Of a DNA stretch of 44,285 nt, positions 34,877 through 35,792 are shown one piece after another. Source of the stretch: an uncultured Pelagibacteraceae bacterium (lineage in GTDB: Bacteria; Pseudomonadota; Alphaproteobacteria; Pelagibacterales; Pelagibacteraceae); assembly GCA_902532225.1 (NCBI GenBank), contig CACAHI010000006.1, forward strand, positions 1 to 44,285, in the 5' to 3' direction. How positions within the stretch are numbered: position 1 is the stretch's first letter; each line of letters opens with the position of its first letter. Both the position numbers and the translations under genes were made by a program. Under the pieces are notes generated by a model, which was not told the origin of the DNA, ran no database searches, and saw only the letters and a list, made by a program, of their open reading frames with translations.

Positions 34877-35671
34877 TTAATTTAATTTTGGTGAGACTTT
34901 CGATTTGGTATCTTTATCTTTTGGAGATATAATTTTATCTTTATCCTTTATTTGTTCTTTTTTTTCTTCTGGTATTTTTTTTGTAATATCTTTGGATGCA
35001 TTTTGAATGGTCTCTTTTATTAAATTACAATATAAATCAATTGACCTTCTTGCATCATCATTTCCGGGTATAGGAAAATCTATACCTATTGGATCAGAAT
35101 TTGAATCCAAAATCGCAACTATTGGAATATTTAATTTTATCGATTCCTTAACAGCTAAAGACTCGTAATTAGTATCAATTATGAATACTAGATCAGGAAC
35201 CTTTTTCATGGAGGCAATTCCTCCTAATGATCTTTGTAATTTATCTCTTTGAATTCCCATTTTTAGAATTTCTTTTTTAGTAAAACCTCTATTTTCACCT
35301 ACAAGGTTTTGATTTAGTTTTTCTAATTTTTTAATTGAATTAGATATTGTTCCCCAATTTGTTAACATTCCACCTAACCATCTATAATTAACATAGTATT
35401 GATTTGTGGTTTTAGCTAATTCTGCAACAGAATCCGAAGCTTGCTTTTTTGTTGATATAAAAAGTATTTTTCCGTTTTCTTTTACAGTTTCATAAATTTT
35501 TTGCAGAGCAACATTAAACAACTCTAATGTTTGTGTTAAATCAATTATATGTATGGAATCTCTTTTGCCAAAAATATATTTTTTCATTTTTGGATTCCAT
35601 CTTAGCGTCTTGTGACCTAAATGAACTCCAGCTTCTAATAACTGTTGTATTGTTATATTTGGTATCTTCAT
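34877..35671 (-). CDS. rpsB: 30S ribosomal protein S2
   Basis: 264 aa; [80 protein letters not shown]. Confidence 0.98.
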
Positions 35672-35680
35672 ATTTTTCCC

Positions 35681-35738
35681 GGTTAATCCACCACAATCAT
35701 TGCCATTAAGGACCGGAGGTAATTAACCACTAATTGTG
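35681..35738 (-). ncRNA. Candidate structured rpsB (S2) leader, predicted H-type pseudoknot
   Basis: On the transcript: a = CACAAUU (35732-35738), b = GGUUAAU (35722-35728), a' = GAUUGUG (35692-35698), b' = AUUAACC (35681-35687), ordered a-b-a'-b'; ACCUCC (35715-35720) lies between b and a'. It ends 9 nt upstream of the rpsB ATG. No folding computation was run. Confidence 0.5.
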
Positions 35739-35774
35739 TGCGTTTTAATTAATGCTATTTACAAATTAATATTT

Positions 35775-35792
35775 AAAAAAACAAGTCTTTTT
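35775..35792 (-). terminator. Weak A/U hairpin and U-tract immediately after the dnaE stop
   Basis: Transcript AAAAAGACTTGTTTTTT right after the dnaE stop; short, GC-poor stem. Confidence 0.25.

Follow-up and report, generated by a model that had tools for sequence, protein, structure and literature searches.

The window analysed here is the whole 44,285-nt stretch of DNA. Its source genome belongs to SAR11, and close relatives by rpsB protein belong to the Pelagibacteraceae, named P. ubique strains among them. The rpsB gene, which encodes ribosomal protein S2, occupies 34877-35671 on the minus strand with its ATG at 35671 (TIGR01011, 307 bits). Downstream of it lie tsf (TIGR00116) and then frr (TIGR00496), and the upstream neighbor is dnaE. 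No intergenic region in the window is longer than the dnaE-rpsB gap of 121 nt (the next longest is 62 nt), and GC content reaches 36% at 35672-35760 compared with 25.6% window-wide, in agreement with an earlier note that had singled out this region as long and locally GC-rich.

The minus strand of the gap carries CACAAUU (35738-35732), GGUUAAU (35728-35722), GAUUGUG (35698-35692), and AUUAACC (35687-35681), in the order a-b-a'-b', and ACCUCC at 35720-35715. As the earlier note had read them, the four segments make two 7-bp complementary pairs in crossing order with one G-U, located in the first pair (CACAAUU/GAUUGUG). Between the end of AUUAACC and the rpsB ATG lie 9 nt that include GGGA, also as described. 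The note took the arrangement for an H-type pseudoknot in which ACCUCC, as an internal anti-Shine-Dalgarno (SD) element, could sequester a GG-rich site. The features assigned in this study are as follows.

35756..35785, minus strand: promoter-like boxes CTTG ... TTGTAAAT, with a putative start upstream of P1
35740..35742, minus strand: outer 5' strand of P1, CGC, pairing with GUG at 35689-35691
35739..35739, minus strand: single bulged A in P1, unpaired in the Rfam model; in the alignments it separates the two parts of P1
35731..35738, minus strand: inner 5' strand of P1, CACAAUUA, pairing with 35692-35699 (UGAUUGUG) and including CACAAUU
35726..35728, minus strand: 5' strand of P2, GGU, previously placed in the second helix (RNAalifold; exchange of GGU/ACC for AGC/GCU between families)
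35718..35720, minus strand: 3' strand of P2, ACC, the first half of ACCUCC (RNAalifold; genus and family comparison)
35712..35716, minus strand: 5' strand of the pseudoknot, CCGGU, in J2-3 (paired in 67/67 SAR11 sequences; compensatory variants)
35710..35711, minus strand: 5' strand of P3, CC (2 bp here, paired in 42/42, up to CCCC/GGGG in relatives)
35703..35704, minus strand: 3' strand of P3, GG (alignment A1)
35689..35699, minus strand: 3' strand of P1, UGAUUGUGGUG, inner part 35692-35699 and outer part 35689-35691 (covariation)
35679..35683, minus strand: 3' strand of the pseudoknot, ACCGG, separated from the rpsB ATG by 7 nt
35662..35742, minus strand: whole rpsB motif (RF01815 match, cmscan 38.9 bits), running into the first rpsB codons

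A cmscan search against Rfam matched the leader to the rpsB motif, RF01815, at 35742-35662 on the minus strand (38.9 bits, E = 1.6e-6, full model 1-132). The earlier note had mentioned reports of a structured rpsB leader in SAR11/alphaproteobacteria and suggested an Infernal search; RF01815 is the leader it meant, and the match has the right place and strand. The motif was first described from the dnaE-rpsB gap of 'Cand. Pelagibacter ubique', the same gap as here (Meyer et al. 2009, PMC2704228). It comprises a stem P1, a three-stem junction, and a 5-pair pseudoknot between J2-3 and a 3' extension of P1, and the 'Cand. P. ubique' copy has three pairs in P2 and two in P3 (PMC2704228). Like members of RF01815, which lie immediately 5' of rpsB (or tsf) on the coding strand, the window leader directly precedes rpsB on that strand, and it shares the long covarying P1 with a bulged A, the short P2 and P3 (3 bp and 2 bp, as in P. 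ubique), and the 5-bp pseudoknot, here CCGGU/ACCGG. It differs in its linker between pseudoknot and AUG, which is 7 nt without a separate SD, whereas most other Alphaproteobacteria have 12-23 nt.

The score of 38.9 bits is below the RF01815 gathering cut-off of 40 bits, which is a database annotation threshold and not a biological feature. When 101 genomes including the window's own were scanned with RF01815, 39 matched at E <= 1e-3 and none passed the cut-off. The other SAR11 copies tested were likewise under 40 bits (about 28-39), and named 'Cand. P. ubique' strains scored 32.9 and 35.7 bits. Since the cut-off also rejects 'Cand. P. ubique', the organism from which the motif was originally described, a score beneath it does not exclude membership. 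We assigned the window leader to RF01815; the match lies in the correct place and strand and in the same gap as the original description. The leader is an already known regulatory RNA, and the window comes from the clade that provided its first description.

Two crossing 7-bp helices also occurred in 46 of 1000 dinucleotide shuffles of the gap, so the bare topology is mildly unusual and pairing alone proves little. The nested MFE fold of the single sequence was unexceptional (z = -1.0); it recovered P1 with a different interior. These values would suit chance complementarity in AT-rich spacer DNA, an explanation whose probability we regard as negligible, as it is refuted by strong covariation and near-universal conservation. 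We collected rpsB leaders from the window's genus and its sister family, most of them reached via the rpsB protein rather than the motif, and aligned 42 leaders (A1) and 67 SAR11 leaders (A2). In these alignments, it is the comparative data, and not complementarity itself, that demonstrate a structured RNA.

P1 has 11 pairs with a bulged A: the first proposed helix (CACAAUU/GAUUGUG) is extended by one pair on the inside and by three pairs beyond the bulge. In A2, 92.9% of its cells were paired (77.2% in shuffles), and 122 cells showed double changes against a shuffle mean of 47. Compensatory changes were present in both alignments, P1 covariation exceeded all 500 shuffles, and sliding the partner strand abolished the signal in A2. 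The outer pair was C-G in 42 and A-U in 22 sequences of A2, and the middle pair of the outer part was G-U in 38, U-A in 20, and U-G in 2. The first helix of the earlier note is therefore real and forms the bulk of P1.

RNAalifold recovered P1, P2, and P3 unprompted. P2 reads GGU/ACC throughout the window's genus (41/41) and AGC/GCU throughout the sister family (25/25). The second proposed helix, GGUUAAU/AUUAACC, was rejected; among 42 relatives, its outer three positions pair in 3, 14, and 2, respectively. Overall, 62.6% of its cells were paired, and 495-497 of 500 shuffles did equally well or better on pairing and covariation (495 reached the same or higher covariation). Compensatory changes, which the earlier note had proposed to seek in both helices, thus appeared in the first, whereas the second stayed below shuffles. 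The GGU of this helix is P2, and its 3' bases pair with CCGGU instead. Within ACCUCC, ACC is the 3' strand of P2, a U follows, and the final CC opens the 5' strand of the pseudoknot. The hexamer occurs in 40/41 sequences of the window's genus and 0/25 of the sister family, and it is missing in deeper SAR11. Its pairing with GGUGG as an anti-SD was also rejected, as a U-U or other mismatch occurs in 41/42 sequences.

The H-type pseudoknot with an internal anti-SD can draw on the window genome, where all of its segments are complementary with one G-U, and on the genus, where 40-42 of 42 sequences could form the inner four pairs GGUU/AACC. However, three of the seven pairs of its second helix fail in most relatives, the covariation of that helix falls under that of shuffles, and its GGU is used in P2, where it is exchanged between families. 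The sister family and deeper SAR11 lack ACCUCC, and SD-like sites are unenriched in the window. We consider this model highly improbable. What stands of it is a pseudoknotted rpsB leader and the first helix; the second helix and the anti-SD role of ACCUCC do not.

Neither A1 nor A2 shows any variation in the published pseudoknot, CCGGU/ACCGG. Since invariance within these alignments is uninformative on pairing, wider lineages were compared. CUGGU/ACCAG was found in three genomes of one alphaproteobacterial family (L281, L298, L305), and CCUGU/ACAGG in one Pelagibacteraceae cell, AG-447-O23 (L228). The double change in the latter preserves the published pseudoknot and disrupts a G-C of the second proposed helix, which also speaks against the H-type model. 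Gammaproteobacteria have GGGGU/ACCCC, CGGGU/ACCCG, or UGGGU/ACCCG at these positions; their 5' strands were read by eye from a MAFFT alignment, the soft spot of this comparison, in which the GGU-containing block is one gap-free column block. Between them, these separate lineages show double changes at three pairs out of five. All SAR11 rpsB leaders examined closely had the pseudoknot; most of them were reached via the rpsB protein. The comparison decides in favor of the published pseudoknot, CCGGU/ACCGG.

Two further observations concern single leaders. The AG-447-O23 leader (L228:300-400) was unreported by the Rfam model at E <= 0.1. An uncultured Rickettsiaceae genome (L278, rpsB ATG at 392) has a leader without CCGGU/ACCGG; at the positions of the pseudoknot strands it has UUUGUUAGU and ACUAACAAA, complementary over nine bases, and a separate AGGAG follows. 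An Rfam search of this rpsB leader detected nothing, and a class-wide rpsB search found no close relatives of the variant. Most Rickettsiaceae were listed without the motif by Meyer et al. (PMC2704228).

The leader also matched t44 RNA (RF00127) weakly, at 20.3 bits (E 0.049) against a gathering score of 44 bits. It shares with t44, the E. coli rpsB-tsf 5'UTR operator (Aseev et al. 2008), the P1 outline (CAC-A-CAC...GUGGAGG) and the position of the pseudoknot. However, t44 has GGGGU/ACCCC where the window has CCGGU/ACCGG, in gammaproteobacterial copies the pseudoknot is separated from the AUG by 14-25 nt that hold a clear SD, and the ribosome binding site (RBS) of E. coli is reported outside the operator (PMC10931766). 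Because of its low score, we did not file the window leader as t44, and the shared architecture suggests homology. The P1 outline, the bulged A, and the pseudoknot position are common to RF01815 and RF00127 copies (window 35662-35760; L131-L160). By this comparison, the two families look like one homologous leader divided by lineage.

The distance from the pseudoknot end to the AUG was 7-10 nt in 68 SAR11 leaders, 7 nt in the window, and 4-10 nt among Pelagibacteraceae from a second collection. Linkers were longer in 30 other Alphaproteobacteria (12-20 nt) and in 30 Gammaproteobacteria (14-25 nt), and nearly all of these contained a site of the AAGGA, GAGG, or AGGAG type. Most SAR11 genomes have no separate SD site between pseudoknot and AUG. 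The exceptions are another Pelagibacteraceae genus (G198, L181) with AAGGA in a 10-nt linker, and a few SAR11 genomes with GGA in the linker (L217, L222). Conversely, a handful of other Alphaproteobacteria (L197, L283, L300, L310) have linkers of 9-11 nt with a GGAG partly from the pseudoknot strand. In a deeper SAR11 subclade (L246 and L252, rpsB ATG at 401), four A residues alone lie between ACCGG and ATG. The arrangement of a short linker without a separate SD is near-universal in SAR11 and sporadic in other Alphaproteobacteria.

SD-like sites were not enriched in 41 gene upstream regions (window 8-44147) compared with shuffles, with a mean anti-SD pairing of -0.41 vs -0.58 kcal/mol, calculated with predicted start codons; no 16S of this genome was found. 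SD-based gating was rejected, as the upstream regions pair with the tail no better than shuffles. This suggests that initiation in the window's genome is largely SD-independent. Because the short linker of 4-10 nt lacks a separate SD in most SAR11, the likeliest action of the SAR11 pseudoknot is direct occupation of the initiation region rather than the hiding of an SD.

Conserved promoter-like boxes lie upstream of P1. The pattern TTG-N17-19-GTA was found 5' of P1 in 35/41 genus leaders, at 35784-35760 in the window, against 1.5 expected from shuffles; it was picked after viewing the sequences, which makes the enrichment somewhat optimistic. A simple scan of the upstream region for the E. coli sigma-70 consensus gave no match. 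Given the conserved boxes, transcription likely starts upstream of P1, so that its 5' strand, and with it the first helix, would be transcribed.

In E. coli, S2 represses the rpsB-tsf mRNA through its 5'UTR, aided by S1 (Aseev 2008, as outlined in the review PMC10931766). As the structure and position of the leader are homologous with those of E. coli, we propose S2-dependent repression here as well. Excess free S2 would bind the leader fold and stabilize the pseudoknot, which, 7 nt before the AUG, would sit within the space needed by the 30S subunit. Initiation of rpsB would then be blocked, and expression of the downstream genes would drop. As assembling ribosomes consume S2, the pseudoknot would open and translation would resume. 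S2 probably limits its own production through this leader.

A conserved leader fold could instead serve mRNA stability, constitutive translation enhancement, or another role. The present data are conservation and structure, with S2 dependence measured in E. coli (PMC10931766), which leaves some room for such a role. However, the same fold precedes the same gene across Alpha- and Gammaproteobacteria, and the gene product is the simplest ligand, so we judge a role other than S2 autoregulation unlikely. We are confident in the reading as an rpsB-motif leader of the RF01815 kind on the rpsB-tsf transcript, with the proposed S2-dependent repression acting via the pseudoknot. More tentatively, and with somewhat less than even confidence, we suggest that operator and ribosome binding site are fused in the SAR11 rpsB leader, so that an S2-stabilized pseudoknot would block initiation directly and independently of an SD. 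We infer this blocking from the SAR11 spacing, whereas the E. coli RBS reportedly falls outside the operator.

The published pseudoknot is now backed by independent double changes within SAR11, within Alphaproteobacteria, and between Alpha- and Gammaproteobacteria. The Rfam cut-off overlooks the motif across SAR11, which are among the ocean's most abundant bacteria. Since the E. coli RBS is reported outside the rpsB operator, the mechanism of repression has been termed unclear (PMC10931766). The SAR11 leader may offer a compact natural case for the question of how S2 represses.
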